Shown here piece by piece: positions 29,641 through 49,144 of a DNA stretch of 64,000 nucleotides (position 1 is its first letter; every line of letters begins with the position of its first letter). The DNA is taken from assembly GCA_902607585.1 (NCBI GenBank), contig CACLKP010000001.1, positions 38,896 to 102,895 of the forward strand, given 5' to 3'. The notes under the pieces were generated by a model. The model saw only the letters and a list, made by a program, of their open reading frames with translations. It was not told the origin of the DNA and searched no databases. The stretch comes from an uncultured Pelagibacteraceae bacterium (GTDB taxonomy: Bacteria; Pseudomonadota; Alphaproteobacteria; Pelagibacterales; Pelagibacteraceae). The position numbers were made by a program, and so were the translations under genes.

Positions 29641-29642
29641 AC

Positions 29643-30602: not shown

Positions 30603-30623
30603 TTACTTATTATAATAAATATT

Positions 30624-30680
30624 ATGGTTTTTTTATACATTGTTTTGGCATTGTGGGCTGTAGGAATGATGTCGGAATAA
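30624..30680 (+). CDS. Possible 18-aa hydrophobic micropeptide
   Basis: MVFLYIVLALWAVGMMSE* read directly from the speB / 30691 intergenic gap. Confidence 0.15.
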   Translation: MVFLYIVLALWAVGMMSE

Positions 30681-30690
30681 TACTGTAGAA

Positions 30691-30888
30691 TTATTTTTCT
30701 ACACGTTCGCATTTTGCTTTTATTTTGTTTCTATATTCGGGATCCTCATTAAACATTCTAGCTCGAGAAGAGCATTGTTGATAGGTTTCGTATACAACTC
30801 GAGACCAACCTATTTTGTCTTTACCAAGTACTTCTGCAGATTGCCAACCGGCAGTAGTCATAAAATAAACTACAAGTGCCCATTTCAT
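30691..30888 (-). CDS. Small hypothetical protein following the ABC permease
   Basis: 65 aa, hydrophobic N-terminus, two Cys (QQCSSR, KAKCER); 3 nt after the permease ORF, same strand. Confidence 0.55.
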   Translation of the reverse strand: MKWALVVYFMTTAGWQSAEVLGKDKIGWSRVVYETYQQCSSRARMFNEDPEYRNKIKAKCERVEK

Positions 30889-30891
30889 GAC

Positions 30892-31776
30892 TTATTTATG
30901 TAATTTAATACCACGCAGTCGCTCAGACCTTCTTCTCAGCATCTCAACTGTTGTTAGTAGTGCAATAGATAGAGCAACTAAGCATGTAGCCATACACAAA
31001 ATTACAGGACTCGTTTCTTGGCGTAGACCCGCCCACATCTGTTTCGGTATAGTTATTTGCTCAACGCTGCCTACAAACATAACAACTACAACTTCATCAA
31101 AAGAAGTAATGAATGCGAATAATGCTCCAGAGATAACACCAGGAAGAATTAAAGGCATAATAACTTTAAAGAAAGTTCGCATAGTATCTGCACCTAAACT
31201 TTGGGATGCTCTAATTAAATTAGTATCAAAACCGGTTAAGGTGGCCGTAACTGTAATAACAACGAACGGTGTTCCAAGAGCCGTGTGTGCAAGAATTAAA
31301 CCTAGATAAGTATGAGTCAATCCAATTTTTGAATAAAAGAAAAACATTCCTGCTGATGTAATAATTAACGGAACAATCATCGGTGAAATCAATATTGCCA
31401 TAAGAGTGCCTTTAAATGGCATATTCGGTCTGCTTAAACCTAGGGCAGCAACAGTACCTAGTGCGGTTGCTAAAAATGTGGCACAAATTCCAATGAAAAA
31501 ACTATTTCTAGTTCCCAACATCCACTTATTAGTAACAACTGTTGTATCTCCTATACTGCTAATACCAACCATTTGCCTGTACCACCTAAGCGAATAGGCC
31601 TCTGGCTCAAAATTCATAAACTCTTTTGTAAATTCAAAAAATGGTGAAGCGCTAAATGATAAAGGAAGAATTATAAAGATAGGTGCAATTAAAAAGAAAA
31701 AGACAAAACCGCAATAGGTTAAAAATGAATAGTACCCTATTCTTTGTCCTGTTGTTGCATATGTCGGTAAAGCCAT
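30892..31776 (-). CDS. ABC transporter permease (PotC type)
   Basis: SLGADTMRTFFKVIMPLILPGVISGALFAFITSFDE, EAA-loop. Confidence 0.9.
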   Translation of the reverse strand: MALPTYATTGQRIGYYSFLTYCGFVFFFLIAPIFIILPLSFSASPFFEFTKEFMNFEPEAYSLRWYRQMVGISSIGDTTVVTNKWMLGTRNSFFIGICATFLATALGTVAALGLSRPNMPFKGTLMAILISPMIVPLIITSAGMFFFYSKIGLTHTYLGLILAHTALGTPFVVITVTATLTGFDTNLIRASQSLGADTMRTFFKVIMPLILPGVISGALFAFITSFDEVVVVMFVGSVEQITIPKQMWAGLRQETSPVILCMATCLVALSIALLTTVEMLRRRSERLRGIKLHK

Positions 31777-31778
31777 AA

Positions 31779-33032
31779 TTATCCTAATTTAATATTTTCT
31801 ATTCCAACTATTTTATTATAAGCCCAATACAAAACTGTCATCACTGCTAAAAGTATAGCTCCCAGTGAGGCGCAAAGCCCCCAATTCAAAGTTGTTTTCA
31901 AATGATAAGCAATCCAGTTTCCTACCATTTGTCCATCCTTACCACCTACTAATTCTGGCGTTATGTAATATCCAATTGCTATTATAAATACGAGCATACA
32001 TCCTGCACTAATCCCTGGAACCGAATTTGGCATATAAACTTTCCAAAAAGCATGTAAAGGCGAAGCTCCAAGATTTAAAGCTGCACGCATATAAGTTGGT
32101 GGGATTGTTTTCATCACACTATACAAAGGCAAAACCATAAACGGTAATAAAATTTGTGTCATGACTATTACAACTGCTGTTTGATTGTACATAAGTTGAA
32201 AGCGGTTTTCGTCTGCAATAACATGGGACATCACCAACAAATTATTAAGAACGCCTTTTTGTTGCAACATAACCATCCACGCTACGGTTCGAACCAGCAA
32301 CGATGTCCAAAAAGGTAACAGCACACATATCATTAAAAGGTTGCTATATTTTAAAGGTAATGTTGCAAGCAAATAAGAAATTGGATATCCCAAGATCAAA
32401 CAAAAAAACATAACCAAAAAACTTATTTTAAATGTTTTAATCCATGTATGATTATAAATTCGTCTGTTTTCTTTTTGTCGAATGATCTCTTTATTAGAAT
32501 CGAATTTTAAATCAACGGCATTCAAATAATACCCCATAGTTGTGGGATCGACCATTACCCCCAAAGCTTTCCAATAATCAATATCCCCCCATCTTTTTTC
32601 AGCTGCAATCATTTGCTCTTTGTAGGGACCCTCTTCAATTTTTTTAAATTTTCTTTTAGATTTTTTTAATAAACTTTTCCAACCGGATTTTGAATAGTTC
32701 ATTCGGGTACTTGCTTTACCAATATCGTAACCTTCGCTATTTTTTACTTCAAAAAACATTGTTTCATAAAGTTCTTCGGAAGGTAAACCTTGTTGATCCC
32801 ATTTTTTATAAACTTCAAAAGTTTTTGGAAAAACAGTATTAATTTGTCTATCGTCAATACTTCGAACAAGCATATCAGCTATAGGGATTAAAAACGTAAC
32901 CAGTATAAAAACTAGAAGTGGAGCAACTAAAAGAAATGCTCTTATTTTATTTTTTCGCTCAGATTTTTGAAGACTAACTTTTAACGGAATTCCGTCCGTT
33001 GTTAATATCGGTTCTGAAGCAGTTTGATTCAT
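31779..33032 (-). CDS. ABC transporter permease (PotB type)
   Basis: NLGASPLHAFWKVYMPNSVPGISAGCMLVFIIAIGYYITPELVGG. Confidence 0.9.
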   Translation of the reverse strand: MNQTASEPILTTDGIPLKVSLQKSERKNKIRAFLLVAPLLVFILVTFLIPIADMLVRSIDDRQINTVFPKTFEVYKKWDQQGLPSEELYETMFFEVKNSEGYDIGKASTRMNYSKSGWKSLLKKSKRKFKKIEEGPYKEQMIAAEKRWGDIDYWKALGVMVDPTTMGYYLNAVDLKFDSNKEIIRQKENRRIYNHTWIKTFKISFLVMFFCLILGYPISYLLATLPLKYSNLLMICVLLPFWTSLLVRTVAWMVMLQQKGVLNNLLVMSHVIADENRFQLMYNQTAVVIVMTQILLPFMVLPLYSVMKTIPPTYMRAALNLGASPLHAFWKVYMPNSVPGISAGCMLVFIIAIGYYITPELVGGKDGQMVGNWIAYHLKTTLNWGLCASLGAILLAVMTVLYWAYNKIVGIENIKLG

Positions 33033-33055
33033 TGTTTCTATTATAAAAAAAGCAC

Positions 33056-33090
33056 AAAAAAAGGCGAGATAAATACCTCGCCTTTTTTTT
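33056..33090 (-). terminator. Rho-independent-type hairpin between binding-protein and permease genes
   Basis: aaaaaaaggcgag-ataaatac-ctcgcctttttttt: GC-core stem flanked by A-run and T-run. Confidence 0.8.
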
Positions 33091-33108
33091 CAATTATATT
33101 ACGAATTA

Positions 33109-34170
33109 TTAGTTACCCTTCCAGGCACCAAATCTCTCATGAACTTCAGCTCCATTATCAGCCCACCAAAACGGGTCAGCTATAATAGCTCTCTTAAGTA
33201 CTTTCGGATCAGTTGGCATATGAGGCATGATATCAATATTACCAGAATCTGTTATGAACCAAGGTTCACCTTTTTTGATAATACCAATACTAGATTTTCT
33301 CATAGGACCATATGGAATGTATTTAGCTTGTTCAGCATTCGATTCTGCAGACGAAGCGTGAGCCATAAACTCAAGTGCTTCAGCTTCATTTCCACCTTTG
33401 ATTGCTACAAGATATTCTTGTTCAAGAACTGTACCATCCCAAATGTATTCGAAGTCTTTACCTTCAGAAAGGATAGCAGCACCGATTCTACCGTTGTATG
33501 CTAATGCCATAACAACTTCACCGCTTGATACTAATTCAAGTGGTTTAGAACCTGCAGACCAGAATACAACGTGATCTTTAATTGTATCTAGTTTAGCAAA
33601 TGCTCTGTCAATTCCTTCAGGAGTACTCATTACATCGTAAACTTTACTTGCTTTAACACCATCGGCAACAAGTGCCATTTCGATTAAAGCGTTCGCCCAT
33701 GTATGAATACCTCTTTTTCCAGGAAACTTTTTAACATCAAAGAAATCTTTCATTCTTTTTGGTTTCTTGCCTGGAAAAGCTGCTTTGTCATAAAATGCAG
33801 TATAAGCCCAGAAGATTTGCGGAACAACACAGTCAGAAACTGGTGGTACCACTAAGTCATTTATAAACTCACTTTGGTCTACTTTTGCAAATAAGCCTTC
33901 ATCGCAACCAGTGATCGCTTGGTCAGGAAGTACGTCTACAACATCCCAAGTCACATTGCCTGCTTCTACTTGTGCTTTAATTTCTCCAAGGCCACCGTTG
34001 TAGTTCTCAACAGTAACTCCTGAACCTTTGCTCCAAGTATCTATGTAAGCCTTTTGTTGACTCGCTGTATAAGCTCCGCCCCAAGATACAAACGTAATGT
34101 CTGCATAAGCTGATGAAGCATATGCCATTGCGATCAATCCAAGAAAAGTAGCTCTTATTAATTTAAACAT
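33109..34170 (-). CDS. ABC transporter substrate-binding protein (PotD type)
   Basis: Signal peptide; ITFVSWGGAYTASQQKAYIDTWSKGSGVTVENYNGGLGEIKAQVEAGNVTWDVVD. Confidence 0.9.
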   Translation of the reverse strand: MFKLIRATFLGLIAMAYASSAYADITFVSWGGAYTASQQKAYIDTWSKGSGVTVENYNGGLGEIKAQVEAGNVTWDVVDVLPDQAITGCDEGLFAKVDQSEFINDLVVPPVSDCVVPQIFWAYTAFYDKAAFPGKKPKRMKDFFDVKKFPGKRGIHTWANALIEMALVADGVKASKVYDVMSTPEGIDRAFAKLDTIKDHVVFWSAGSKPLELVSSGEVVMALAYNGRIGAAILSEGKDFEYIWDGTVLEQEYLVAIKGGNEAEALEFMAHASSAESNAEQAKYIPYGPMRKSSIGIIKKGEPWFITDSGNIDIMPHMPTDPKVLKRAIIADPFWWADNGAEVHERFGAWKGN

Positions 34171-34259
34171 ATTTACCCTCTTATTTGTGATTAATTATAC
34201 GTATAAGTCGGCAATCTAAGCATATTGAGAAAGTGGTGTAAAATAAAAAAATAACTAAT

Positions 34260-35357
34260 TTAACGTAGATCTAAAGCCCTAGAATCGCTGGCTTTCCAAG
34301 AAAGTTTAACGGAAGCCCCTTCTTTTAGATTAGCTCCCTTGTAGGAATTTGGAACTTTTACAATGAACTGGTCATTTCCACAAACTTCAACTCTTGTTCG
34401 AATATGATCTCCTAAATAAATTAATTCTTTAACTTTGGCTTCAAACGAATTTTCAAAACTACTATCAGACGAATTAATCTCAACACGTTCCGGACGAAGA
34501 GAAACGGTAGAGGCATCGCCTATAGAATTAACATTTACTTTTAGAGATTTTATTTCCTCTCCTTTTTCAGTTTTAACAACACACATCTTACCATTAATTG
34601 ATTTCACTTTCCCTTTAAGTTGATTATTCTCACCAATGAACTGTGCAACAAATGCATTTTCAGGTTTTTCATATAAAATATCTGGTGATGATATCTGTTG
34701 AATTTTTCCATCATTAAATACCGCTATACGATTTGACATTGTAAGAGCTTCGTTTTGATCGTGAGTAACATAAACAACTGTAATTCCAATCTGCTCATGA
34801 ATATGTTTAATTTCATATTGCATTTGTTCGCGAAGTTTTTTATCCAGAGCGCCCAAAGGCTCATCCATCAAAACTAGCCTAGGTTCAAAAACTAAAGCTC
34901 TTGCTAGTGCAACACGTTGTTGTTGTCCGCCAGATAATTGTAAAGGCATACGACTACCAAACGCTTCCAACTCTACCATGCCTAAAGCTTTTTTTACTTT
35001 TTCTTCAATATTAGATTTACTTAATTTTCTAACCTCAAGTGGAAATGCAAGATTTTCATTTACCGTCATATGCGGAAACAAAGCATAGTTTTGAAAAACC
35101 ATTCCAATTCCTCTTTTGTAAGGAGGAATTTTATTAATTGCTTCCCCATCTAAATATATTTCTCCACCAGTTGGCGTTTCAAACCCAGCTAGCATCATTA
35201 ATGTTGTTGTTTTCCCAGAACCAGACGGTCCCAGCATTGTAAGAAACTCACCTTTAGGAATATCTACGTTTAGATCTTTAACTACGAGTATTTCTCCATC
35301 GTAGCTTTTATCTACCTTATCAAATTTTACAAAACTGTCTGAACTCCCCATAAGCAT
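34260..35357 (-). CDS. ABC transporter ATP-binding protein (PotA type)
   Basis: Walker A GPSGSGKTT, LSGGQQQRVALARAL, Walker B LVLMDEPLGALD, TOBE domain. Confidence 0.93.
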   Translation of the reverse strand: MLMGSSDSFVKFDKVDKSYDGEILVVKDLNVDIPKGEFLTMLGPSGSGKTTTLMMLAGFETPTGGEIYLDGEAINKIPPYKRGIGMVFQNYALFPHMTVNENLAFPLEVRKLSKSNIEEKVKKALGMVELEAFGSRMPLQLSGGQQQRVALARALVFEPRLVLMDEPLGALDKKLREQMQYEIKHIHEQIGITVVYVTHDQNEALTMSNRIAVFNDGKIQQISSPDILYEKPENAFVAQFIGENNQLKGKVKSINGKMCVVKTEKGEEIKSLKVNVNSIGDASTVSLRPERVEINSSDSSFENSFEAKVKELIYLGDHIRTRVEVCGNDQFIVKVPNSYKGANLKEGASVKLSWKASDSRALDLR

Positions 35358-35395
35358 TGAATATTAAACATTTGTGAAAAATTTTTTCAAGTTTT

Positions 35396-36565
35396 TTATC
35401 CTTTAATGTGTAAATCTCTTGATAAATTGCAGAATAATTCAGAACCTTTGTCTGTAACTCTTACTGACTCGCTGGCCTCCACGCCCCAATCACCAAATTG
35501 CATCACAGCTATCATATGGAAAGTAACGTTAGGTTGTAAAACAGTTTTATCACCTTTTGATATATTTAAAGTTTGTTCGCCCCAATCAGGAGGGTAACCA
35601 ATGCCAATAGAATATCCTGTTCTTGATTCTTTTTTGATTCCATATTTATCTAAGACGCCCCAAAATTTTTGAGCAACATCGTCAGCAGTGTTTCCTGGTT
35701 TAGTAACTGAAATTCCAGCGTCTAATGCTTCGTTAGTCGCTTTCATTGTATCAATTTTTTTTTGATTTTTTTTACCTAACAATACAGTCCTCGCCATAGG
35801 ACAATGATATCTTTTGTGGACTCCTGCTATTTCAATAATTGTTGCTTCACCATCAACAAATTTATCTTCTGTTGCTGTTAAATGTGAAGCTGAAGTCCCT
35901 TTCCCTGTAGGCAATAAAGTTGCAATGCTAGCATAATCACCACCAAATTCTGGGGTACCTTTAAACAAAGCTTTTTGAATATCAGCAACAGCATCGCACT
36001 GTCTTACCCCAGGACTAACACTTTCAAAAGCTGTTTTCATTACTTTTTCAGTTATTTGAGCTGCTGACTGCATTAACTTAATTTCAGCATCCGATTTAAC
36101 AACTCTTGCCCAATTTACTAAACGTTCTGCATCTTTAACTTTTGAATTTGGTAAGCCTTTTTTTATTGTCTCATAACAAAATGCAGTGAAATAATGACTG
36201 TCCATTTCTAGTCCAATATTAGACTTGTCCCACTTTCTTTGTTTTATTATTTCAACTAAATATTGGTAGGGATGTAATGGCCATGTATGAATATACTTTT
36301 CATCATACGCGATAATATTTTTATGTTGAACATAAGTCTTGATATATCCTCCTCCAACATCTTGAGCTCTTAGAAAACAAATTGGTTCATCTTCATTAAG
36401 ATGTACTAAAACACATTGCGCATAATAAAAAGACCATGCATCATATCCTGTTAAATAGTTCATATTAGCGGGATCGTGAGAAACTAATAAATCAATGCCC
36501 TGTTTTTGCATTGAGTCTTTTACTTTTTTTAATCGTTCTTTGTACTCACTATTTTTAAAAAGCAT
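35396..36565 (-). CDS. doeA: M24 family hydrolase, ectoine hydrolase DoeA/EutD-like
   Basis: DPANMNYLTGYDAWSFYYAQCV, PGVRQCDAVADIQKALFKGTPEFGGDYASIATLLPTG, YHCPMARTV, GIGYPPDWGEQTLNI; next to EutA-like gene. Confidence 0.7.
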   Translation of the reverse strand: MLFKNSEYKERLKKVKDSMQKQGIDLLVSHDPANMNYLTGYDAWSFYYAQCVLVHLNEDEPICFLRAQDVGGGYIKTYVQHKNIIAYDEKYIHTWPLHPYQYLVEIIKQRKWDKSNIGLEMDSHYFTAFCYETIKKGLPNSKVKDAERLVNWARVVKSDAEIKLMQSAAQITEKVMKTAFESVSPGVRQCDAVADIQKALFKGTPEFGGDYASIATLLPTGKGTSASHLTATEDKFVDGEATIIEIAGVHKRYHCPMARTVLLGKKNQKKIDTMKATNEALDAGISVTKPGNTADDVAQKFWGVLDKYGIKKESRTGYSIGIGYPPDWGEQTLNISKGDKTVLQPNVTFHMIAVMQFGDWGVEASESVRVTDKGSELFCNLSRDLHIKG

Positions 36566-36566
36566 T

Positions 36567-37316
36567 TTAATTCTTTAAAAGTTTTCCATATCCTTCAACT
36601 GAAGATTTATATCCCACCGATCTTATAGTGTCCCAAATTAAAGTCTGATTACTAGAAAAAACAGGTTTATTTATTTTTTTTTCAACTTCGTCAAGAATTT
36701 CTAAGGCTGGAAGTGCCGTACAAGATACAAAAATTGCGTCCGCATCATTTATGTTTAACTTAGTTAATATCTCAGATAGATATTTTGGATCTACTCTTGC
36801 AAAATCTACATCTAAATCTAAATTAAAAGTACTAAATGACGTTACATTGATATTTTTTTTAATAAGATATTCAGAAATAGTTTTGTTTACAGATTCGGGA
36901 TAAGGTGTAAATACAGAAATCTTTTTTACATTCATTTTATTAAAAGCTTTAATTGCTGAAGTGATTGGAGTTGTTACGTGACAACCAGGCTTGGCCGATT
37001 GGATTTTTTCTTTAACTTTATCTTCTCCTATAGCTATTGTTCCCGATGTGCAGCCATAGGCCACTGTATTAATTTTTTCGCCTGGTAAAATTTTTTCAGT
37101 AATTGACTCTAATTGATCATACATTTTTAAAAGATTTTCTTTAGTTAATGGATTTTCGTTATGAATACGATTTACAAATAGATTGATGGGTAGACTGTGA
37201 CATATTGATTGAAAATCTCTTTCTATTGTAAGGTCAGTTGATAGCGCAAGCAATCCAATTCTTGGATTGGATTCTTTTTTAAATTTTGCTTCAATGTATT
37301 TCGATTTTATATTCAT
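36567..37316 (-). CDS. Maleate isomerase / Asp-Glu racemase superfamily, EutA-like
   Basis: VAYGCTSGTIAIGEDKV, VTTPITSAIKAFNKMNVKKISVFTPY, ADAIFVSCTALPALEILDEVE. Confidence 0.75.
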   Translation of the reverse strand: MNIKSKYIEAKFKKESNPRIGLLALSTDLTIERDFQSICHSLPINLFVNRIHNENPLTKENLLKMYDQLESITEKILPGEKINTVAYGCTSGTIAIGEDKVKEKIQSAKPGCHVTTPITSAIKAFNKMNVKKISVFTPYPESVNKTISEYLIKKNINVTSFSTFNLDLDVDFARVDPKYLSEILTKLNINDADAIFVSCTALPALEILDEVEKKINKPVFSSNQTLIWDTIRSVGYKSSVEGYGKLLKN

Positions 37317-37320
37317 AAAA

Positions 37321-38526
37321 TTATTTTATTACGTTGTGTTCTGGGCCAAATGGAAACTTGGTAATATCTTCGGACCCATTCTCGTTTACTACAAGAATAT
37401 CATGCTCGCGGTACCCTCCTGCTCCTGGTTCTCCTTCGGGAATAAAAATCATTGGTTCCATAGAAACAACCATATTAGGTTTCAAAACTGTTTCTATATC
37501 TTCGCGAAATTCAAGTTTGCCTTCCCTCCCATAATAAGGACTTAGAAGACCAAAAGAGTGTCCATAGCCAAAAGTACGACGATGAAGATAACCTAGTTCA
37601 GAAAATAAATTGTTTAGTTCGGCTGTTACTTCTGAACACTTAATTCCAGGTTTAATAATTTTAATTCCATGTCGATGAACTTTTACATTAGCCTCCCAAG
37701 CTTTCATTGAAGCATCATCGACTTCGCCGACAAAAAGTGTTCTCTCTAATGCTGTATAGTAGCCTGAAATCATAGGAAAGGTATTTAGAGAAAGAATATC
37801 TCCAAGCTTTAGTTTCCTGGTAGTTAGGGGATTATGAGCTCCATCCGTATTAATTCCTGACTGAAACCAAACCCAAGTGTCTCTTAATTCTGAATTTGGA
37901 TGATATTTTGCTATAGCTTTCTCCATTGCATCACGACCTACCATTGCAATATCAATTTCCGAAGCCCCAACTTTAATTTCTTTTACGAGAGCTTCGCCGC
38001 CTATATCAGCAATTTTTGCTCCACTTTTTATTAAAGCTATTTCCTCCTCTGACTTGATCATTCTTTGCTGCATTGTGGATGGTGCAATATCAATTATTTC
38101 TGGATTTCCAAGAGAATCTTTTAAGTTTTGATAACGCTCCATTGTTAAATGATCTTTTTCAATACCTATTTTTTTAACTTTTTTTACTAAGGAAATTATT
38201 GTCTTAAAATAATTGTCTCTTCCCCAATCAGTATAAATAAGATTTTCACCATAGCATCTGCGTCCTGGTTGGCCTGCATCAATGTTTGCTGAAACAACAA
38301 TATTTCGTTTATCAGTAACAACACAGGCGTATGGTCTTCCAAATGAACAGTAAAGAAAGCCTGAATAGTAGGCAATATTTTGCAGAGAAGTTAAAATTAC
38401 TGCATCAAGATTTTTTTCGGTTATTATTTTTCTTAAATTTTTTAGCCTATTTTCGTACTCTTTATCACTAAAAGGTAACGGAATTTTAGGTCCATTTGTG
38501 AATTGAAAAAAATCTGATCTTTTCAT
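37321..38526 (-). CDS. Creatinase (creatine amidinohydrolase)
   Basis: Strong resemblance to recalled creatinase sequence: NIAYYSGFLYCSFGRPYACVVT, YTDWGRDNYF, WFQSGINTDGAHNPLTTRKLKLGDILSLNTFPMISGYYTALERTLF, RTFGYGHSFG, MEPMIFIPEGEPGAGGYREHDILVVNENGSEDITKFPFGPEHNVI. Confidence 0.9.
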   Translation of the reverse strand: MKRSDFFQFTNGPKIPLPFSDKEYENRLKNLRKIITEKNLDAVILTSLQNIAYYSGFLYCSFGRPYACVVTDKRNIVVSANIDAGQPGRRCYGENLIYTDWGRDNYFKTIISLVKKVKKIGIEKDHLTMERYQNLKDSLGNPEIIDIAPSTMQQRMIKSEEEIALIKSGAKIADIGGEALVKEIKVGASEIDIAMVGRDAMEKAIAKYHPNSELRDTWVWFQSGINTDGAHNPLTTRKLKLGDILSLNTFPMISGYYTALERTLFVGEVDDASMKAWEANVKVHRHGIKIIKPGIKCSEVTAELNNLFSELGYLHRRTFGYGHSFGLLSPYYGREGKLEFREDIETVLKPNMVVSMEPMIFIPEGEPGAGGYREHDILVVNENGSEDITKFPFGPEHNVIK

Positions 38527-38624
38527 TATTAATTCCTAAACGATTAAGAAACGCCAAAAAACTAGCATAAATAGTTTGCTAACTCTATTTTAAAATTATT
38601 GCATTCTACTTATTGCTAATTTAT

Positions 38625-38700
38625 TCTACGATCATCAAGGCGATACATAACTCATCGTAAACTACGAAAGCGGGATCGGTCGACTTAAATTATTAAGGAG
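38625..38700 (+). promoter_or_regulatory. Possible structured leader upstream of the 38701 operon
   Basis: TACGAT(38627-38632)/ATCGTA(38654-38659) stem, with alternatives GCGAT/ATCGT and CGTA-AAC-TACG; local GC-rich stretch cgaaagcgggatcggtcgac; AAGGAG RBS next to ATG. Confidence 0.3.
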
Positions 38701-39876
38701 ATGCTGATGAAGATTGGATATTTTTGTAATACTACCAATTGGAAAAAAAAAACATACACACAAATATTAGATGAAGCGAGAGATATAGCTATTTATTGTG
38801 ACAAAAATAATTGGAATTCTATTTGGTTTACTGAACATCACTTTAATCACGAAGGAATGGAATCTTGCCCTAACCCACTAATACTGGGAACAGATATAGC
38901 GGCCAGAACCAAACAAATAAGAATAGGCCAAGCTTGCAATGTAATTACTTTTTGGAACCCAATTAGATTAGCTGAAGATATTGCTGCCCTAGACCATCTT
39001 TCTAATGGGAGAGTTGAAGTCGGGGTAGGTAGAGGAATTTATGGTCGAGAAGCTCTTCATATGAATGTAGAAGCCGATTTAAAAGATCAAGCAAAAAATA
39101 AAAGATTATTTGAAGAAACTTTAACAATAATGAAAAAAGCCTGGACTGAAAAATTTTTTAGCCATCAAGGAGAATTTTATACTTATCCTTCGCCTGATTT
39201 TGTCTGGCAACATGATATGAGCCCACCTAATGAAAATTTTGTAGATTTAAAAACTAATAAATTAAAAAAAATTAGCGTAGTGCCTCAACCTTATCAAAAA
39301 CCTCACCCGCGAATATGGCAAGTGGTAGATTCTCCTGGTTCAATTAAAAGAGCAGCAGAACTTGGTATTAATTGTATAATGTGGATACCAACAGTTAAGG
39401 CTTTAAAAGAAAGATTTGAAATTTATAAAAATGCTAAATCAGAAACTGAAAAAAGGGATGTTCCTATGGGTGAAGGTATTTGTTTAGTTCGAGATCTGTT
39501 TATAGCTGATAGCATGGAAGAAGCAAAAGAACTTGCTGGAGAACAAATGGTTAATTATATGCGTTGGGTTTGCCATTGGCGGGGTTTAGGAAGTCATATG
39601 GACCCAGGTGAAGAACTTCCTAAAACAAAAAATAAACTTGATTTACTTTCGTATGATTTTCTTCACAAACGTAATATGCTTTTTGGAACTTCAGAATATG
39701 TTATTGAAAAAATTGAAGAACTAAAGTCAGAACTCAATTTACAAAATCTACAGGTTTGGTCTAACTTTCCAGGCGTTAAACATGAACATTGCATGAAAAG
39801 TATTAAATTATTTACAGAAAAAGTAATGCCACATTTTAAAAACGGATTTAAAACTAAAATAAAAAAAGTTTCGTGA
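38701..39876 (+). CDS. LLM class flavin-dependent oxidoreductase (luciferase-like monooxygenase)
   Basis: SIWFTEHHFNHEG, IRIGQACNVITFWNPIRLAEDIAALDHLSNGRVEVGVGRG. Confidence 0.88.
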   Translation: MLMKIGYFCNTTNWKKKTYTQILDEARDIAIYCDKNNWNSIWFTEHHFNHEGMESCPNPLILGTDIAARTKQIRIGQACNVITFWNPIRLAEDIAALDHLSNGRVEVGVGRGIYGREALHMNVEADLKDQAKNKRLFEETLTIMKKAWTEKFFSHQGEFYTYPSPDFVWQHDMSPPNENFVDLKTNKLKKISVVPQPYQKPHPRIWQVVDSPGSIKRAAELGINCIMWIPTVKALKERFEIYKNAKSETEKRDVPMGEGICLVRDLFIADSMEEAKELAGEQMVNYMRWVCHWRGLGSHMDPGEELPKTKNKLDLLSYDFLHKRNMLFGTSEYVIEKIEELKSELNLQNLQVWSNFPGVKHEHCMKSIKLFTEKVMPHFKNGFKTKIKKVS

Positions 39877-41564
39877 GTAAATCATATAAGCTAAAAGGTG
39901 GTCAAGCAGCTGTTCAAGCTTTAAAAAAAGAAAAAACTAAACATGTGTTTGGTCTAATTGGATCAGCTACTATAGAAATGTTTGATGCTCTTTATCATGA
40001 AAAGGATATTAAATTTATAGGAGTAAGAGATGAAAGAACTGGTGCGCACATGGCAGATGGATATGCAAGAGCTTCTAATGGGCCAGGAGTAATACTTGCT
40101 GGACAAAACGGACCTGGTGCTACAAATCTTGTCACTGGTATCGCGCAAGCAGCAGCTGCATTTTCTCCGGTAGTTTCAATAGCAGGATTTATTTCAACAA
40201 AAGATAAAATCCAAGACGCTTTTCAGGGTATTGATCAACAATCTTTATTTAAACCAATAACTAAAAAAACCTGGACCATTAGTACGACAAAACAAATACC
40301 AAAAATATTCAGTAAAGCGTTTAATTTGGCTATGTCTCCAAGAAGAGGACCTGTTCAATTAAACTTGCCAAGAAATATTTTATCTGGAACGGCTGAATTT
40401 AATATTAACAAAAATGAAAAATCTTACAAAACTATAGACACTACAAAAGGTAAAAAAAATGACATTAAAAAAGCAGTTCAAATTATCAGTTCTGCTACAA
40501 AGCCTGTTATTATTGCAGGGGGAGGTATTAAATATACTGGCATTTATGAAGAAGTAATCAAACTTGCCGAATTAACAAATGCTCCCATAGTTACTGCCGC
40601 GGGCCACGGCGATGCTATTCCCTTTAACCATAAATTAAATGCTGGACAAATGGGTCCGAGAGGGAATCCTGTTGCCTCACGACTAATGAAAGAAGCTGAT
40701 GTCATTATTGCTCTTGGAACCCGACTTGGATTTAACTCAACTTTCTTTTCATATGAAAATTTAAATAAAAAGGCAAAGATTATTCAAATTGAATTAGAAA
40801 ATAAGATGTTAGGTAGATATTTTCCGGTTTCTGTTGGAATTTGTGCGGACGCATCAACAGTAGCGAAACAATTATATAATAAAATAAAAATTAATAAATT
40901 AAGTAAAGAAATTGATAGCTGGACAAAAAAATATTTAGATGAAAGATCTAGTTATTTACAAACTAGAGATAAGCTAATAGATAAATTTCCAATACAACCA
41001 GCCACTTTATTTAAACAACTAAGAAATGTGTTGCCTAAAAATTCAGCAATTACTCTCGATGCTGGCACTTTATGTCTTCAAGCTACAGATGCTCTAAAAT
41101 ATTATGATCCACCTTCTTTATTTACTCCTTTAGATTTTGGTCTAGTGGGTTTCTCTTTTGCATGCGGACTTGGTGTTAAAGTTGCACGTCCAGACAAAAC
41201 AGTAGTAAGTTTAATGGGTGATGGAGGTTTTGGTATGACCATTTCCGAACTTAGTACTGCTGTAAATTATGGTATTAATACCATCACAATAGTAATGAAT
41301 AATAAAAGTTGGGGTGCAGAGAAAGCTTATCAAAAAGATTTTTTCGGAAAACGCTATATTGGATCAGACATAAGTAGCCCACCATTTGATAAAGTTGCTC
41401 AACTTTATGGGGCAGAAGGTTTTAAAGTTGAACGTTCTTCAGAAATTAGTGAAGCGGTTGAAGCAGCACTAAAATATAATAAACCTGTGGTCATAGATAT
41501 TGCGATAGATCCAAAAGCACTGTACAGTTTTCGTCGTGACTCATTTGAACATAGAAATAAATAA
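39873..41564 (+). CDS. Thiamine-diphosphate-dependent enzyme (acetolactate synthase / sulfoacetaldehyde acetyltransferase-like)
   Basis: VFGLIGSATIEMFDAL, ILAGQNGPGATN, ThDP motif MGDGGFGMTISELSTAVNYGINTITIVMNNKSWG. Confidence 0.85.
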   Translation: MSKSYKLKGGQAAVQALKKEKTKHVFGLIGSATIEMFDALYHEKDIKFIGVRDERTGAHMADGYARASNGPGVILAGQNGPGATNLVTGIAQAAAAFSPVVSIAGFISTKDKIQDAFQGIDQQSLFKPITKKTWTISTTKQIPKIFSKAFNLAMSPRRGPVQLNLPRNILSGTAEFNINKNEKSYKTIDTTKGKKNDIKKAVQIISSATKPVIIAGGGIKYTGIYEEVIKLAELTNAPIVTAAGHGDAIPFNHKLNAGQMGPRGNPVASRLMKEADVIIALGTRLGFNSTFFSYENLNKKAKIIQIELENKMLGRYFPVSVGICADASTVAKQLYNKIKINKLSKEIDSWTKKYLDERSSYLQTRDKLIDKFPIQPATLFKQLRNVLPKNSAITLDAGTLCLQATDALKYYDPPSLFTPLDFGLVGFSFACGLGVKVARPDKTVVSLMGDGGFGMTISELSTAVNYGINTITIVMNNKSWGAEKAYQKDFFGKRYIGSDISSPPFDKVAQLYGAEGFKVERSSEISEAVEAALKYNKPVVIDIAIDPKALYSFRRDSFEHRNK

Positions 41565-41566
41565 AT

Positions 41567-42157
41567 ATGGATTTAAATTTAAGAAAATTTGCAAAGTTTG
41601 TTGATAAAACTTTTATTGAAGGTGGTAAAAAAGCGAAAACACCTGTTTTGCTTGTTTCTGTTGCTGCTGTAATAAAAAACCCATGGATAGATAGAGGCTT
41701 TGTTGAAGATTTAAAACCTGAAATCCTTGCATTGGCTCCGAAGCTTGGAGATATTTTAGTTCCTGAACTAATAAAAGAAATAGGTTCTGGTGATAAAGTT
41801 TTAGCCTACGGTAAAGCTGGAGTGGTGGGTATAAAAGGTGAGATTGAACACGCTTCTGCATTTATTCACACATTAAGATTTGGAAACAAATTTAGAGATG
41901 CGGTTAAAGGAACTTCTTATTTAAGTTTTACAAACACAAGAGGCTCCGCAGGATCCAAAATTTCAATTCCCATGATGCATAAAACAGACAGTGGATTAAG
42001 ACCTTATTATTTAACTCATGAATTTAACATTCAGGATGCACCATGTCCTGATGAAATTGTCATTGCTATAGGTGGATCACCAGGAGGAAGAGCGCATGCT
42101 AGAACTGGAGACCGGTACCAAGACATGAAAGAAATGGGAATTAAAAATCCCAAATAA
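41567..42157 (+). CDS. DUF1185 / amino-acid-synthesis family protein (PF06684-like)
   Basis: KTPVLLVSVAAVIKNPW, AYGKAGVVGIKGEIEHASAFIH, VIAIGGSPGGRAHARTGDRYQDMKEMG. Confidence 0.8.
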   Translation: MDLNLRKFAKFVDKTFIEGGKKAKTPVLLVSVAAVIKNPWIDRGFVEDLKPEILALAPKLGDILVPELIKEIGSGDKVLAYGKAGVVGIKGEIEHASAFIHTLRFGNKFRDAVKGTSYLSFTNTRGSAGSKISIPMMHKTDSGLRPYYLTHEFNIQDAPCPDEIVIAIGGSPGGRAHARTGDRYQDMKEMGIKNPK

Positions 42158-42162
42158 ATTAA

Positions 42163-42954
42163 ATGTCAAATAAAGTAGATTCATTTGGCACTTCATATTC
42201 CTTAAAAAAAATTAATGAAAAAAATCCAATCGTATTCATACATGGCGTAGGTTTAACAAAAGAAATTTGGGAACCACAAATTAATTTTTTCAAAGATTAT
42301 AATACTCTTACATATGATTTGTTGGGACATGGAAAAACACCTCTAAAGAAATCTGAGGTTAGTTTTGAGGATTTCTCTAAACAATTATTTAGATTAATTA
42401 ATGAACTAAATTTTAACAAGATTCATTTAGTAGGTTTTTCATTAGGAGCTCTAATTGCTAGATATTTCGCTTCCGTACACAGTGATAAGTTATGTTCCTT
42501 AATCATACATGGTTCAATATATAAAAGAAATGAAGAACAAAAAAGAGTTGTTAGAAATAGATTTGAAGTAGCAAAACTGAAAAGACCAGCTTCAAAACAA
42601 ACAGCCATAAGAAGATGGTTATCTGAAAATTTTATTAAAAAAAATCCTGAAATCTATAATAAAATTTATTCTATTTTGGAGAAAAATAACCATAAAGATT
42701 TTTTAAAGTGTTATGAAATTTTCATTAATTATATTGATGATGACAATATGTTAGCGAAGATCAAAGCTAGTACTCTTATAACTACTGGAGAAAATGATGT
42801 AGGTTCAACCCCCGAAATGTCTAAAAATTTAAGTAAAATAATTCAAGGAAGTAAATTTGTTGAAATAAAAGAAGGTAAACATCTTTGTGGTATAGAATGT
42901 GCCAATGATGTAAATATAGTTTTTAAAGAATTTATTGATAAAAATAATGGCTAA
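42163..42954 (+). CDS. Alpha/beta hydrolase
   Basis: IVFIHGVGLTKEIWEPQ, LVGFSLGALIARYFA nucleophile elbow, EGKHLCGIEC catalytic His region. Confidence 0.85.
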   Translation: MSNKVDSFGTSYSLKKINEKNPIVFIHGVGLTKEIWEPQINFFKDYNTLTYDLLGHGKTPLKKSEVSFEDFSKQLFRLINELNFNKIHLVGFSLGALIARYFASVHSDKLCSLIIHGSIYKRNEEQKRVVRNRFEVAKLKRPASKQTAIRRWLSENFIKKNPEIYNKIYSILEKNNHKDFLKCYEIFINYIDDDNMLAKIKASTLITTGENDVGSTPEMSKNLSKIIQGSKFVEIKEGKHLCGIECANDVNIVFKEFIDKNNG

Positions 42955-44428
42955 ACTTAAAGAATATAAAATGTATATCAACGGATCGTGGGTTGATGCA
43001 GAAGGTAAAAAAACTTTCAAAAGTTTGAATCCTGAAAATAATGAACCCTGGGCTATTGTTCCCGAAGCAAGCGCTAAGGATGTTAATAAGGCAGTAGATG
43101 CAGCTCAAAAAGCATTCGAGGGAGAATGGCCAAAATTACTTCCGAGAGAAAGAGCTAACTACTTAAAAGCCATTGCAAATCAGTTAAGAGAAAATGCAGA
43201 ACTGTTAGGAAAAATAGAAACAATAGATACAGGAAAACTTTTCAGAGAAACCAAAACTCAAGCAAACTATATTGCAGAATATTATGATTATTTTGCGGGT
43301 CTAGCAGATAAAGTTGAAGGAACTGTTTTACCAATTGATAAACCTGATATGCAAGTCATTACAACTAGAGAGCCGATTGGTGTTATCGCAGCAATCATTC
43401 CATGGAATTCTCAAATGTTATTGACAGCAGTTAAGCTCGCTCCAGCACTAGCTATGGGAAATACTGTTGTAATTAAATCATCTGAATTAGCTCCTGCAAC
43501 TATGTTTGAATTTGCAAAATTAGTAGAAAAAACTGGAATACCTAAAGGGGTAGTGAATGTTGTAACTGGATTTGGTGATCCATGCGGAAAAGCATTAACT
43601 ACTCATAAACATGTTGAAAGAATTGCTTTTACTGGAGGAGCAGATACTGCAAGACATATTATTAGAAATTCAGCTGAAAACTTATCTCAAGTAAGTTTAG
43701 AATTGGGAGGCAAAAGTCCTGTAGCCGTATTTGAAGATGCTGATCAAGAAAATGCATTAAATGGAATTACTGCTGGTATTTTTGGAGCAAGTGGTCAAAG
43801 TTGCATTGCTGGCTCTAGATTATATCTGCAAAAAAGTATTTATAATAATTTTTTAGATAAATTAGTGAACCGCGCAAATAAAATAAAATTAGGAAACCCA
43901 ATGGATTCTGATATTCAAATGGGACCTCTTAGCAGTTTAAAACAATTGGAAATAATAGAAAAAAATATAAAACTTACAGTTAACCAAGGTGGAAAAATAA
44001 AATGTGGGGGAAAGAGACATACATTATCAAATAAGGGTTACTACTTCCCAGCAACTATAATAGAATGTGAAAATCATAATCTACCAACTGCTGAAAATGA
44101 ACTTTTTGGTCCTGTATTATCGGTAATGAAATTTGATACTGAAGAAGAAGTAATCAATAAAATGAATGACAATCAGTACGGATTATCCTCTGGTGTTTAC
44201 ACTAAAGATTTAGGTAGAGGATTAAGGGTGTCGAAAGCTATACGAGCAGGGATAACATTTGTGAATACTTATAGATTAATATCACCATCTGCTCCATTCG
44301 GCGGAATGAAGGATAGCGGATATGGAAAAGAGGCGGGTATTGAATCTATCAAGGATTACACGAGAATAAAAACTATCTGGTTCAACACATCAGAAAAACC
44401 CATGGCTGATCCCTTTACAATGGGATAA
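42935..44428 (+). CDS. Aldehyde dehydrogenase family protein
   Basis: IPWNSQMLLTAVKLAPALAMGNTVVIKSSE, LSLELGGKSPVAVFED-type motif, GQSCIAGSR catalytic Cys; likely starts at the second Met (MAKLKEYKMY). Confidence 0.93.
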   Translation: MIKIMAKLKEYKMYINGSWVDAEGKKTFKSLNPENNEPWAIVPEASAKDVNKAVDAAQKAFEGEWPKLLPRERANYLKAIANQLRENAELLGKIETIDTGKLFRETKTQANYIAEYYDYFAGLADKVEGTVLPIDKPDMQVITTREPIGVIAAIIPWNSQMLLTAVKLAPALAMGNTVVIKSSELAPATMFEFAKLVEKTGIPKGVVNVVTGFGDPCGKALTTHKHVERIAFTGGADTARHIIRNSAENLSQVSLELGGKSPVAVFEDADQENALNGITAGIFGASGQSCIAGSRLYLQKSIYNNFLDKLVNRANKIKLGNPMDSDIQMGPLSSLKQLEIIEKNIKLTVNQGGKIKCGGKRHTLSNKGYYFPATIIECENHNLPTAENELFGPVLSVMKFDTEEEVINKMNDNQYGLSSGVYTKDLGRGLRVSKAIRAGITFVNTYRLISPSAPFGGMKDSGYGKEAGIESIKDYTRIKTIWFNTSEKPMADPFTMG

Positions 44429-44528
44429 TCCTTGAATCAATTAGATAAATAAAAGAAATTTTCCCATTGAAAAATAAGTCTTAAAAGTAAATACTGTCAA
44501 AATTAATAATATTATTAAGAGGGAAAAT

Positions 44529-45710
44529 ATGAAAAAACTATTTATTGCTGCAATTATGTCTTTGTCTCTTTTGGCGACAAGTTCATTTGCAGAAATTAAA
44601 ATGGGTATCATTTTAGGATTTACAGGACCTATTGAATCCTTAACTCCTGCAATGAGAGATTCTGCTAAACTTGCTTTTCAAGAAGCTTCTGATTCTGGAT
44701 CGCTTCTAGGAGGAGAAACTATTACTGTTTTAGAAGGTGACTCAACTTGTGTGGATTCTGCTGCAGCAACAACTGCTGCGGAAGGATTGATAGCTCAAGG
44801 TGTTGCCGCTATTATGGGAGCAGATTGTTCTGGAGTAACTGGAGCAATTGCAAGTAACGTAGCAGTGCCTAATGGTGTAGTTATGATATCACCTTCAGCA
44901 ACATCTCCTGGTCTAACGACTTTAGATGATAAAGGTTTGTTCTTTCGTACGGCTCCATCGGATGCCCGTGGTGGACAAATTCTTGCTGACATTACTAAAG
45001 ACAGAGGAATTAAAAGTGTTGCAGTTACATATACTAACAATGACTATGGTAAAGGTTTAGCTGATGTTTATTCAGCAGCAGTTAAAGCTCATGGTATCAA
45101 AGTTACAGCTGTTGAATCTCATGAAGATGGCAAAGCTGACTATAGTGCTGAAGTTGGTACACTAGCATCAGCAGGTGGAGACGCAGTTGCTGTGATTGGA
45201 TACGTTGACCAAGGTGGTAAAGGAATTATTCAAGGATCTTTAGATTCTGGTGCCTTTGATACATTTATATTATCAGATGGTATGATTGGCGATTCTCTTA
45301 CAGACGCATTTGGTAAAAGCTTAAATAAATCTTTTGGTTCTTTACCAGGTTCAACAGGTAAAGGTGCAGGAGTATTTGCAAAAGTTGCTGGAAAAGCTGG
45401 AATTGATCCATCTGGTCCATACACTGGAGAATCTTATGATGCTGCAGCTTTAATCGTGCTTGCAATGCAAGCTGGAGGCTCAGCTGATCGTGGTTCTATT
45501 GCTAAAAACGTAATGGCAGTAGCTAATGGCCCAGGAAAGAAAATTTATCCTGGTCAGCTTAAAAAAGCTCTAGATCTTTTGGCTAAAGGCAAAGCTGTTG
45601 ATTACGAAGGAGCAACAGGCGTCGTATTTACGGACGTTGGAGAACACGTTGGTAATTTCTTAGAAAAAGAAATTAAAGGCGGTAAATTTAAGACTAAAAA
45701 ACAAAGATAA
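44529..45710 (+). CDS. ABC transporter substrate-binding protein (branched-chain amino acid / LivJ type)
   Basis: Signal peptide; GIILGFTGPIESLTPAMRDSAKLAFQEA, MGADCSGVTGAIASNVAVPNGVVMISPSATSP. Confidence 0.9.
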   Translation: MKKLFIAAIMSLSLLATSSFAEIKMGIILGFTGPIESLTPAMRDSAKLAFQEASDSGSLLGGETITVLEGDSTCVDSAAATTAAEGLIAQGVAAIMGADCSGVTGAIASNVAVPNGVVMISPSATSPGLTTLDDKGLFFRTAPSDARGGQILADITKDRGIKSVAVTYTNNDYGKGLADVYSAAVKAHGIKVTAVESHEDGKADYSAEVGTLASAGGDAVAVIGYVDQGGKGIIQGSLDSGAFDTFILSDGMIGDSLTDAFGKSLNKSFGSLPGSTGKGAGVFAKVAGKAGIDPSGPYTGESYDAAALIVLAMQAGGSADRGSIAKNVMAVANGPGKKIYPGQLKKALDLLAKGKAVDYEGATGVVFTDVGEHVGNFLEKEIKGGKFKTKKQR

Positions 45711-45723
45711 AATTTAATTTTAT

Positions 45724-45758
45724 AAACCTCAGCGGTGAAAACTGCTGAGGTTTTTTTT
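45724..45758 (+). terminator. Rho-independent terminator
   Basis: aaacctcagc-ggtgaaaact-gctgaggtttttttt: perfect arms and T8 run directly after the SBP gene. Confidence 0.9.
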
Positions 45759-45857
45759 ATTTAACCATATATGTAGTTATTTTGGTGTAATTTTAACATA
45801 AATTAAGCTTTTCATTTCTCTTTAATTTTAATAGGCTTTCTCGATTGAGAGGGATTA

Positions 45858-47180
45858 ATGGCTAGATCACGAAGAAAATCTGGAGGAGGAAGTGGAGCAA
45901 ATAAAAAGCTACCACTAAATCAATCAATACCTTTAGGCATCCAACATGTGTTTGCGATGTTTGCTGGTAACATTACAGTCCCACTAATTGTTGCAGGTGT
46001 GTTTGGAGTAACAACTGCAGAAAAGATTTTTTTAATTCAAATGGCTTTGTTTGCTGCAGGTGTAGCAACAATCATACAAACAGTAGGTTTTGGTAAAGTT
46101 GGATCAAGACTTCCAATAATTCAAGGAACAAGTTTTGCTTTCATTCCAATAATGTTGCCTTTTAAAGCTTTCGGCTTAGGAGCGATATTCACTGCAGCTT
46201 TTATAGGAGGAATTTTTCAAATATGGATTGGTAAAATGTTAAAACCAATTCGACATATGTTTCCTCCATTAGTAACAGGAATAGTTGTGTTAATGATTGG
46301 AATTAGTCTTCTTAAGGTTGGATTTAAGTATGCTGGTGGAGGAGTATGGTTAATGAACAATAAGCCAGAAATTTTTGGAAATTGGGAACATCTACTTATA
46401 GCCGGCACTGTTTTAATAGTTGCCCTTCTATGTAACCTGAGAGGAAAAGGAATGGTATCTTCAGCTTCTATTCTAATTGGAATAATAGCTGGTTTCGTAA
46501 TGGCCACTTTACTAGGTGAAGTTAGATTTGAAAAAATAGCAGCAGCTGGTTGGTTTGCATTTCCAATGCCGTTTCAATACGGGATAGATTTTGTTTGGGG
46601 TGCAGTCATATTAATGTTGTTCATGTCGGTTGTAACAACAATTGAAACTATTGGAGACATAAGTGCTACGACCATGGGAGGAGCAAACAGAGAAGCTACT
46701 GATAAAGAACTTTCTGGAGGTATAATGGCTGATGGAGTAGGAACAGCTTTTGCATCAATATTTAATGCTATGCCTAACACTTCTTATTCACAAAACGCCG
46801 GTCTAGTTGCTTTTACAGGAGTAATTAGTAGACATGTAGGAACAGTAGCTGGTGTTATTTTAATTTTGCTAGGTTTGTTCCCAAAATTAGGTGGAATTAT
46901 TGCAGCAATGCCAGATTCAGTAATTGGTGGAGCGGCTATCATCATGTTTGGATTAATTGCTGGAGCAGGAATTAAATTGATTTCAAAAACGGAAATGAGC
47001 CAAAGAAATATTTTAATATTAGCTTTATCACTTTCTTTTGGAATAGGATTATACGCTTTTCCTGAGTTCGTTGCCCACATACCAGATTTTGGTATTAAAT
47101 TAAAATTATTGTTAACAACTGGGCTAATTCCAGCAGGATTATTAGCATTCATTTTAAACGCTACATTACCAAAAAAATAA
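45858..47180 (+). CDS. NCS2 family uracil-xanthine permease
   Basis: PLGIQHVFAMFAGNITVPLIVAGVFG, GSRLPIIQGTSFAFIPIM, NAMPNTSYSQNAGLVAFTGVISRHVG. Confidence 0.93.
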   Translation: MARSRRKSGGGSGANKKLPLNQSIPLGIQHVFAMFAGNITVPLIVAGVFGVTTAEKIFLIQMALFAAGVATIIQTVGFGKVGSRLPIIQGTSFAFIPIMLPFKAFGLGAIFTAAFIGGIFQIWIGKMLKPIRHMFPPLVTGIVVLMIGISLLKVGFKYAGGGVWLMNNKPEIFGNWEHLLIAGTVLIVALLCNLRGKGMVSSASILIGIIAGFVMATLLGEVRFEKIAAAGWFAFPMPFQYGIDFVWGAVILMLFMSVVTTIETIGDISATTMGGANREATDKELSGGIMADGVGTAFASIFNAMPNTSYSQNAGLVAFTGVISRHVGTVAGVILILLGLFPKLGGIIAAMPDSVIGGAAIIMFGLIAGAGIKLISKTEMSQRNILILALSLSFGIGLYAFPEFVAHIPDFGIKLKLLLTTGLIPAGLLAFILNATLPKK

Positions 47181-47260
47181 TACTTTAAAATTAACTTAAT
47201 AGCATGTGGCGGATAGTTAGTTTTTATATTATCCAAAAAGTAGTACTATAAATTTAATCT

Positions 47261-49144
47261 ATGGCACCAACTTTAGGAAATTTCGCACTCTGGTTATCTT
47301 TATTTTTTGCTATTTTTCAATTTTTTACTTCTCGAAAAAACAACAAATTAAAGTTCATCACTGTAAGTGTTAATGGATTATTGATTTCTTCTTTAATATC
47401 TTTTTTTTTATTAATGTATGTACATATTGTATCTGATTTTAGTGTACTGAATGTTTTTCAAAATTCCCATACAACAAAACCACTTCTTTATAAAATTTCA
47501 GGCGTCTGGGGCAATCATGAAGGTTCGATGCTGTTGTGGATACTTGTCTTAACTATATTTAATTACTTTATATTTAAATTATATAATAAAAAAAATTCTG
47601 CTTTTATTTCAAAAACTTTAGAAACTCAGGCGTTCATCACAACAGGTTTTATATTATTTACTATTCTTACATCAAACCCTTTTGAAAGAATGATTCCTGC
47701 GCAGGAAAATGGTTTAGGTTTTAATCCAATTCTACAAGATCCCGCATTAGCTATTCATCCTCCTTTGCTATACATTGGTTATGTTGGTTTCTCAGCAGCA
47801 TTTTCTATTAGCATTGCTACATTAAGTGTAGAAGATGGTGAAAAAATTCCTTGGCATATTTACATGAAACCTTTTGTTTTAGCTGCTTGGACTTTTTTGT
47901 CTATAGGAATTGCTCTTGGTGCTTTGTGGGCATATTATGAATTGGGCTGGGGTGGATGGTGGTTTTGGGACCCGGTTGAAAATGCATCTTTCATGCCTTG
48001 GCTACTTGGTACTGCCTTATTACATTCTCTTATTATTGTTGAAAAACGAAAATCACTCCGAGCTTGGGTCCTGCTATTATCAATACTTGCTTTTCTTTTA
48101 AGTGTAATAGGAACATTTCTTGTAAGATCCGGCATATTAACCAGCGTGCATACTTTTGCTTTAGACCCGTCTAGAGGAATATATATTCTTATATTTGCTG
48201 CCTTATTAGGTGGCTATTCCTTAATATTGTTTGGGGTAAAATCAAAAAGATATTTTGATAATAATTATTTCACTTTTTTTAGTAAGGAAGGTTCAATCCT
48301 CATAAATAATATTCTTATGGTTGTTATTTGTTCTACGGTATTTTTAGGAACAATCTATCCACTATTAATAGAAGCTTTGACTAATAATAAAATTTCCGTT
48401 GGAGAACCTTATTATAATTCAACAGTCATTCCAATTATGATACCAGCAATTTTGGTTATGGGTATAGGGCCAATACTAGGTTGGGGAAAAGAAGATAAAT
48501 CAAAAACTTTAAAAAAGATATTTCCCACTATTTTACTTACAACAATAATGACTATTTTTATTTTTTTAATTTATCAATCGTATAGCGTTATTGGAATTGC
48601 TGGAATAATATTAGCTTTCTGGATAATTTCTAACAATCTTCTCATTTTAATTAAAAAAGATAAAAATTGTTCTATGGGTATGATAATCGCTCACCTTGGT
48701 ATCGGATTAGTAATATTAGGAATAACGAGCTCAAGTGTCTGGCAAGAAGAAAAAATTACTAAAATGAAAATTGACAGTGAAACTAAAATTAAAAAATATA
48801 ATATAGTCTTTGAAAAAATTAATGAAATTAAAGAATCTAATTATGTTGCTTTACGGGGAGATTTTTTAGTTTATGATGATAAAAAAAATATTATTACAAT
48901 ACTAAAACCTGAAAATAGATTTTATCTAATAAAAAATAATTTCACTACAGAAGCTTCAATTCACACTAATTTATTTAGAGATTTGTATATTGTTTTAGGA
49001 GAAGGAAATTTGAATGATGGTTGGATAGTAAGAATTTATTACAATCCTTTAGTAATTTGGATATGGATTGGTTCCCTAATTATTTTTATAGGTGGGATCG
49101 TTTCAATGAATATTAATCTAAGAAAATTAAAAATTTTATATTAA
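47261..49144 (+). CDS. ccmF: Cytochrome c heme lyase CcmF
   Basis: WGNHEGSMLLWILVL, AIHPPLLYIGYVGF, WAYYELGWGGWWFWDPVENASFMPWL. Confidence 0.95.
   Translation: MAPTLGNFALWLSLFFAIFQFFTSRKNNKLKFITVSVNGLLISSLISFFLLMYVHIVSDFSVLNVFQNSHTTKPLLYKISGVWGNHEGSMLLWILVLTIFNYFIFKLYNKKNSAFISKTLETQAFITTGFILFTILTSNPFERMIPAQENGLGFNPILQDPALAIHPPLLYIGYVGFSAAFSISIATLSVEDGEKIPWHIYMKPFVLAAWTFLSIGIALGALWAYYELGWGGWWFWDPVENASFMPWLLGTALLHSLIIVEKRKSLRAWVLLLSILAFLLSVIGTFLVRSGILTSVHTFALDPSRGIYILIFAALLGGYSLILFGVKSKRYFDNNYFTFFSKEGSILINNILMVVICSTVFLGTIYPLLIEALTNNKISVGEPYYNSTVIPIMIPAILVMGIGPILGWGKEDKSKTLKKIFPTILLTTIMTIFIFLIYQSYSVIGIAGIILAFWIISNNLLILIKKDKNCSMGMIIAHLGIGLVILGITSSSVWQEEKITKMKIDSETKIKKYNIVFEKINEIKESNYVALRGDFLVYDDKKNIITILKPENRFYLIKNNFTTEASIHTNLFRDLYIVLGEGNLNDGWIVRIYYNPLVIWIWIGSLIIFIGGIVSMNINLRKLKILY

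Follow-up and report, generated by a model that had tools for sequence, protein, structure and literature searches.

Trigonelline (N-methylnicotinate) is an N-methylated pyridine, and its degradation by the tgnABCDEF system of Acinetobacter, rhizobia and Leisingera is the closest described counterpart of the locus considered here. From the hydrolase step of this route, TgnD, Perchat et al. in 2018 reportedly obtained formate, methylamine, CO2 and succinic semialdehyde. The ring of trigonelline is opened by TgnA and TgnB (PMC8269262), and TgnF, a DUF1185 protein, is reported to stimulate the succinic semialdehyde oxidation that depends on TgnE (PMC7913881). In an Acinetobacter plasmid operon, tgnA and tgnB are annotated as the reductase and oxygenase of trigonelline monooxygenase and tgnC as (Z)-2-((N-methylformamido)methylene)-5-hydroxybutyrolactone dehydrogenase, next to genes for a DUF1185 protein, an alpha/beta hydrolase and a succinic semialdehyde dehydrogenase (SSADH). 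Plasmid relatives of the DUF1185 family (PF06684) also led us to operons of Rhizobium and Ensifer comprising DUF1185, an alpha/beta hydrolase, a flavin reductase, a luciferase-like monooxygenase (LLM), an aldehyde dehydrogenase (ALDH), an ABC transporter and an SSADH, while Leisingera carries a tgn-type set as well, with the SSADH not in view. The present work concerns a five-gene operon within a 64,000-nucleotide stretch of DNA (the window) from an uncultured member of the Pelagibacteraceae (SAR11), whose assembly (G000) amounts to 724 kb in 43 contigs and is 55% complete. Like the tgn operons, it unites an LLM, a TgnC-type ALDH, an alpha/beta hydrolase and a DUF1185 protein, and we propose with moderate confidence that it encodes a tgn-like route of SAR11 by which the ring of an N-methylpyridinium carboxylate, most probably either homarine or trigonelline, is opened aerobically. 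A first-pass annotation of the window had singled it out as the best candidate for an undescribed pathway, a view that is hard to maintain as the tgn operon has counterparts, both in family and in gene context, for four of the five genes. The locus comprises:

38701..39876, + strand: LLM-class flavin monooxygenase, TgnB analogue of a separate lineage, proposed ring-opening oxygenase (PF00296, 148.7 bits)
39873..41564, + strand: enzyme dependent on thiamine diphosphate (ThDP), own subfamily, accessory (PF02775/PF00205/PF02776, TPP_enzyme N/M/C)
41567..42157, + strand: DUF1185/AA_synth protein, TgnF homologue (PF06684, 209 bits, cut-off 27)
42163..42954, + strand: alpha/beta hydrolase, TgnD-like, proposed formamide/enamine hydrolase (PF00561, Abhydrolase_1)
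42947..44428, + strand: aldehyde dehydrogenase, TgnC-like (PF00171, Aldedh, 539.6 bits)
44529..45710, + strand: LIV-type periplasmic binding protein, conserved downstream partner (PF13458)
45724..45753, + strand: terminator-like hairpin (13-pair stem, then TTTTT)

The five open reading frames of the operon, all on the + strand, overlap or abut as first described, with spacings of -4, +2, +5 and -20 nucleotides. Only the last value calls for correction: it presupposes a TTG start of the ALDH gene at 42935, and an in-frame ATG at 42947, the more likely start, brings the spacing to about -8. For the LLM, a start at 38707 (MKIGYF) fits the alignment of its relatives better than 38701. The strong hairpin at 45724-45753 lies 3' of the gene for the LIV-type binding protein, which makes it probable that the transcription unit comprises six genes (38701-45710) and ends there. 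An NCS2 permease gene (45858) lies beyond it, and a search of positions 38300-47400 against Rfam returned zero matches.

Conservation of the operon was indeed marked within SAR11. The operon-type LLM was found in 43 of the 197 Pelagibacteraceae genomes sampled, and its closest relatives in named genomes belong to single-cell genomes and metagenome-assembled genomes (MAGs) of this family, with 91% identity in AG-464-B04 and 74-83% in the next ones. Gene neighborhoods were compared in 80 LLM loci of named genomes, which were best matches and hence biased to SAR11, and 63 of them have more than 7 kb of downstream sequence. In these 63 SAR11 loci, the LLM is followed by DUF1185 and the hydrolase without exception (63/63 each), by the ALDH in 62, by the LIV-type binding protein in 51 and by the ThDP gene in 32. 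As the core genes recur in 62-63 of 63 loci, the arrangement is not due to chance, in agreement with the initial view of one catabolic operon with conserved linkage. LLM-DUF1185-hydrolase-ALDH thus forms the functional core, to which the ThDP gene is an accessory; the NCS2 permease and ectoine-like genes are mere neighbors. The ThDP gene is missing from about half of the SAR11 operons, among them that of a freshwater Pelagibacteraceae genome from Lake Baikal (L136).

The relationship with the tgn operons is clearest for DUF1185 and the ALDH. The window DUF1185 protein, the single PF06684 copy in its 55% complete assembly, is 56% identical to TgnF of Ensifer, 54% to TgnF of Acinetobacter and 61% to a copy in a Paraburkholderia tgn cluster, so that the operon contains a TgnF homologue. 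The family had been regarded at first as lacking an established function, which does not take into account the stimulation of TgnE-dependent oxidation reported for TgnF (PMC7913881). The window ALDH is likewise of the TgnC type, with 50-52% identity to TgnC versus 32-34% to TgnE/SSADH, and it joins TgnC and the ALDHs of type-P operons (tgn-like operons with an LLM from the TgnB side, see below) at 98/98 in the tree, and not the SSADHs. The hydrolase has the GFSLG nucleophile, DxxSTPEM (DxxSTPxM) and KHL motifs in common with the TgnD group. The LLM and TgnB share an EHH motif and Tyr114; this tyrosine is invariant in the LLMs of tgn-type operons of both lineages and different in most other LLMs compared, a pattern that is no more than suggestive. 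A 4.8-Mb alphaproteobacterium (G211) carries in one cluster a PF01613 flavin reductase, a window-type LLM (54% identity to that of the window), DUF1185 (62%), a hydrolase and a TgnC-type ALDH (62% to TgnC). By its gene content, this cluster is a full tgn-type set built on the window-type LLM, and it joins both operon worlds.

Several observations weigh against a tgn-like function. By identity and phylogeny, the window LLM is not a TgnB orthologue: it is 25-27% identical to TgnB and falls outside the TgnB clade, in a clade of its own with the LLMs of G211, G226 and G122. The hydrolase reaches just 23-31% identity with TgnD and its relatives, and its tree placement is weakly supported. A flavin reductase of the TgnA type (PF01613) was found neither in the operon nor in any of the seven SAR11 genomes searched, of which five are near-complete; in G211 this reductase stands beside the same LLM type. 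FMN reductases of the PF03358 family occur in all five near-complete SAR11 genomes and could supply the LLM with reduced flavin mononucleotide (FMNH2); they are unlinked to the operon, and none was found in the source assembly, which is 55% complete. Finally, the type-III glutamine synthetase, which exceeds its cut-off in the source assembly as well as in 22 of the 25 near-complete SAR11 genomes that carry the LLM, co-occurs with the LLM across the family (p = 0.00016) and no longer does so within the main genus (22/25 versus 20/24, p = 0.70). This link is therefore taken as relatedness only, and co-occurrence with the methylamine route was rejected as support for an N-methyl substrate. As two defining features, a TgnB-clade LLM and TgnA, are missing, the SAR11 operon is a tgn variant and not a member. 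It further differs from tgn in the lack of an in-operon SSADH, in the ThDP gene added in about half of the cases and in its transport partner, the LIV-type binding protein.

From a mechanistic point of view, the observations concern the families of the genes, the conservation of the operon and its homology and context; the substrate class, order of steps and fate of products given here are deduced from them. The LLM, provided with FMNH2 by an unlinked reductase, would open the ring to yield an N-methylformamido group and an aldehyde, which the ALDH would convert to the acid (TgnC step). In the TgnD step, the alpha/beta hydrolase would then free formate and methylamine, and what remains would be succinic semialdehyde and CO2 if the substrate is trigonelline, or 2-oxoglutarate if it is homarine. 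DUF1185 may play the part reported for TgnF and help the aldehyde step further down, and the ThDP enzyme, where present (about half of the operons), might, as a guess, act on the aldehyde or 2-oxo-acid product of the hydrolase step. This scheme retains, as probable, the earlier suggestion that the monooxygenase opens the substrate, the hydrolase cleaves it and the ALDH oxidizes an aldehyde. Products could be carried onward by the type-III glutamine synthetase/methylamine route and by unlinked SSADH: TgnE is missing from the operon, and a GabD-like SSADH, a 38-41% homologue, is encoded elsewhere in 22 of the 25 near-complete SAR11 genomes with the LLM.

The tgn-like reading leaves two substrates to be weighed. 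The homarine operon of Ferrer-Gonzalez et al. was reportedly found in SAR11. The window operon may, tentatively, be the SAR11 form of this operon for homarine catabolism, and hence already described (Ferrer-Gonzalez et al., 2026, cited in PMC13390433), the possible common substrate class being a marine N-methylpyridine carboxylate; a literature search, which did not reach that paper, turned up no trigonelline or homarine operon of SAR11. Homarine was measured far above trigonelline in Pacific particles, and its conversion by TgnA/TgnB was considered unlikely (PMC8269262), so that a different oxygenase is expected, and the window LLM represents such a lineage. This abundance and presumed misfit favor homarine for the divergent LLM, in line with the place given to N-methylglutamate dehydrogenase in the catabolism of homarine (PMC13390433), which suits methylamine or N-methyl products. 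The resemblance of four of the five window genes to the trigonelline set nevertheless argues the other way, and the likeness to TgnC and TgnF (50-56% identity) favors trigonelline itself, degraded with a replaced oxygenase and an added ThDP enzyme. For Ruegeria pomeroyi, trigonelline is indeed the better growth substrate of the two (PMC8269262). We regard this second sub-case as rather unlikely, however, since plasmids commonly carry TgnB (326 records), which leaves no obvious need for another LLM, and trigonelline is scarce in seawater particles (PMC8269262).

Degradation of some other N- or S-compound, such as a pyrimidine (Rut), a sulfonate (Xsc/SsuD) or an ectoine-like compound, appears quite improbable. 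The similarity of the ThDP enzyme to sulfoacetaldehyde acetyltransferase would fit a sulfonate, but the score remains well below the Xsc cut-off (401 versus 676 bits). The NCS2 permease and ectoine-like genes adjoin the operon, but they vary while the core stays constant, and they were rejected as parts of the system. As to Rut, to which the operon had been loosely compared, both have an LLM and an alpha/beta hydrolase in an operon; in the trees, however, RutA and SsuD lie far outside the LLM group and RutD outside the hydrolases, and the operon lacks the RutB, RutC and RutF families and has an ALDH, DUF1185 and a ThDP enzyme instead. The Rut analogy was rejected on these grounds.

The tgn-like reading implies that the operon probably lets SAR11 consume N-methylated pyridine-type compounds. 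SAR11 being among the most abundant heterotrophs of the ocean, the presence of the operon in about one-fifth of the sampled family would, if this is true, give these bacteria a part in turning over the N-methylated pyridines that phytoplankton produce. It also offers marker genes for metatranscriptomes, and it assigns DUF1185, which carries the annotation "amino acid synthesis," to N-heterocycle catabolism.

The ThDP enzyme deserves separate consideration. It scored below every curated cut-off among its best NCBIfam matches, which include sulfoacetaldehyde acetyltransferase, acetolactate synthase and others (PRK07525, 418 bits for a cut-off of 620; TIGR00118, 400 for 538; TIGR03457, 401 for 676). 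Judged by these scores, it is a subfamily of its own inside the acetolactate synthase/sulfoacetaldehyde acetyltransferase superfamily. Glu54 and the GDG motif, which we take from general knowledge to be catalytic and cofactor-binding elements, are invariant among its relatives. Mapped on the LLM tree, ThDP presence requires just three changes (shuffled mean, 25.9); the gene is therefore inherited in clades and not scattered. Two particular loci may be mentioned here: a contig assigned to a Gammaproteobacteria MAG (MED641, L123) bears a SAR11 LLM-ThDP pair, probably through a binning error, and in another SAR11 operon a small methyltransferase-domain protein is encoded between ThDP and DUF1185 (L071:12584-13210).

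Outside SAR11, ThDP relatives at 59-65% identity were found in four genomes. In three of these (L061, L063 and L185) the gene adjoins an ALDH, a type-P LLM and a hydrolase, and L185 has all six genes consecutively (flavin reductase, ALDH, LLM, DUF1185, hydrolase and ThDP); in the fourth (L062) it lies beside a TRAP transporter. Its place in three tgn-like operons elsewhere marks it as a real accessory enzyme, one that goes with the ring-opening pathway irrespective of the LLM lineage. This distribution points to a downstream product shared by both lineages as its substrate. It is conceivable, albeit doubtful, that the product of ring opening is the direct substrate of the new subfamily, whose members would, for instance, decarboxylate or ligate the C4/C5 aldehyde or 2-oxo acid and thereby add to the TgnE step or circumvent it, with the LLM lineage separately recruited for a marine N-methylpyridine such as homarine, in SAR11 and some other Alphaproteobacteria. 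A role as SSADH substitute in SAR11 was rejected, as SSADH presence is independent of ThDP. Lying in a short, defined pathway, the subfamily has a reaction open to assay.

The type-P operons (the Alphaproteobacteria L061, L063 and L185, and Parasedimentitalea, L089) share with the window an ALDH, an LLM and a hydrolase, with or without DUF1185. They differ in the TgnB-side lineage of their LLM and in a TgnA-like reductase, which is present in L185 and also in L089, there as a fusion with a CoA-transferase. In this last genome, Parasedimentitalea marina, the fusion involves a CaiB-type CoA-transferase (L089:3028-5148), and the tgn-like cluster is accompanied by carnitine-catabolism-like genes. 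A third operon type was observed in Rhizobium, Agrobacterium and Mesorhizobium (L088, L090 and L196), with a flavin reductase, an ALDH, an LLM about 43% identical to TgnB, a hydrolase, a carboxymuconolactone-decarboxylase-like protein and a divergent DUF1185. On a Ruegeria pomeroyi megaplasmid (L183:2354-11674), a ThDP enzyme (40%) is grouped with a trimethylamine-methyltransferase-like protein, a class III aminotransferase and two large FAD oxidoreductases, a set that looks like another methylated-amine pathway.

The surroundings of the SAR11 operon are less constant. The NCS2 permease is an inconstant neighbor, and the upstream side is variable, with ectoine-like genes and a Pot-type transporter in some genomes and an Opp-type transporter in others. 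In the window, positions 28447-38526 hold an ectoine-catabolism-like set divergent from the operon (M24 peptidase, EutA-like, DoeA-like, Pot-type ABC transporter, agmatinase-like and acetylornithine-deacetylase-like), and EutA/DoeA/Pot genes lie upstream of the operon in several other SAR11 genomes too.

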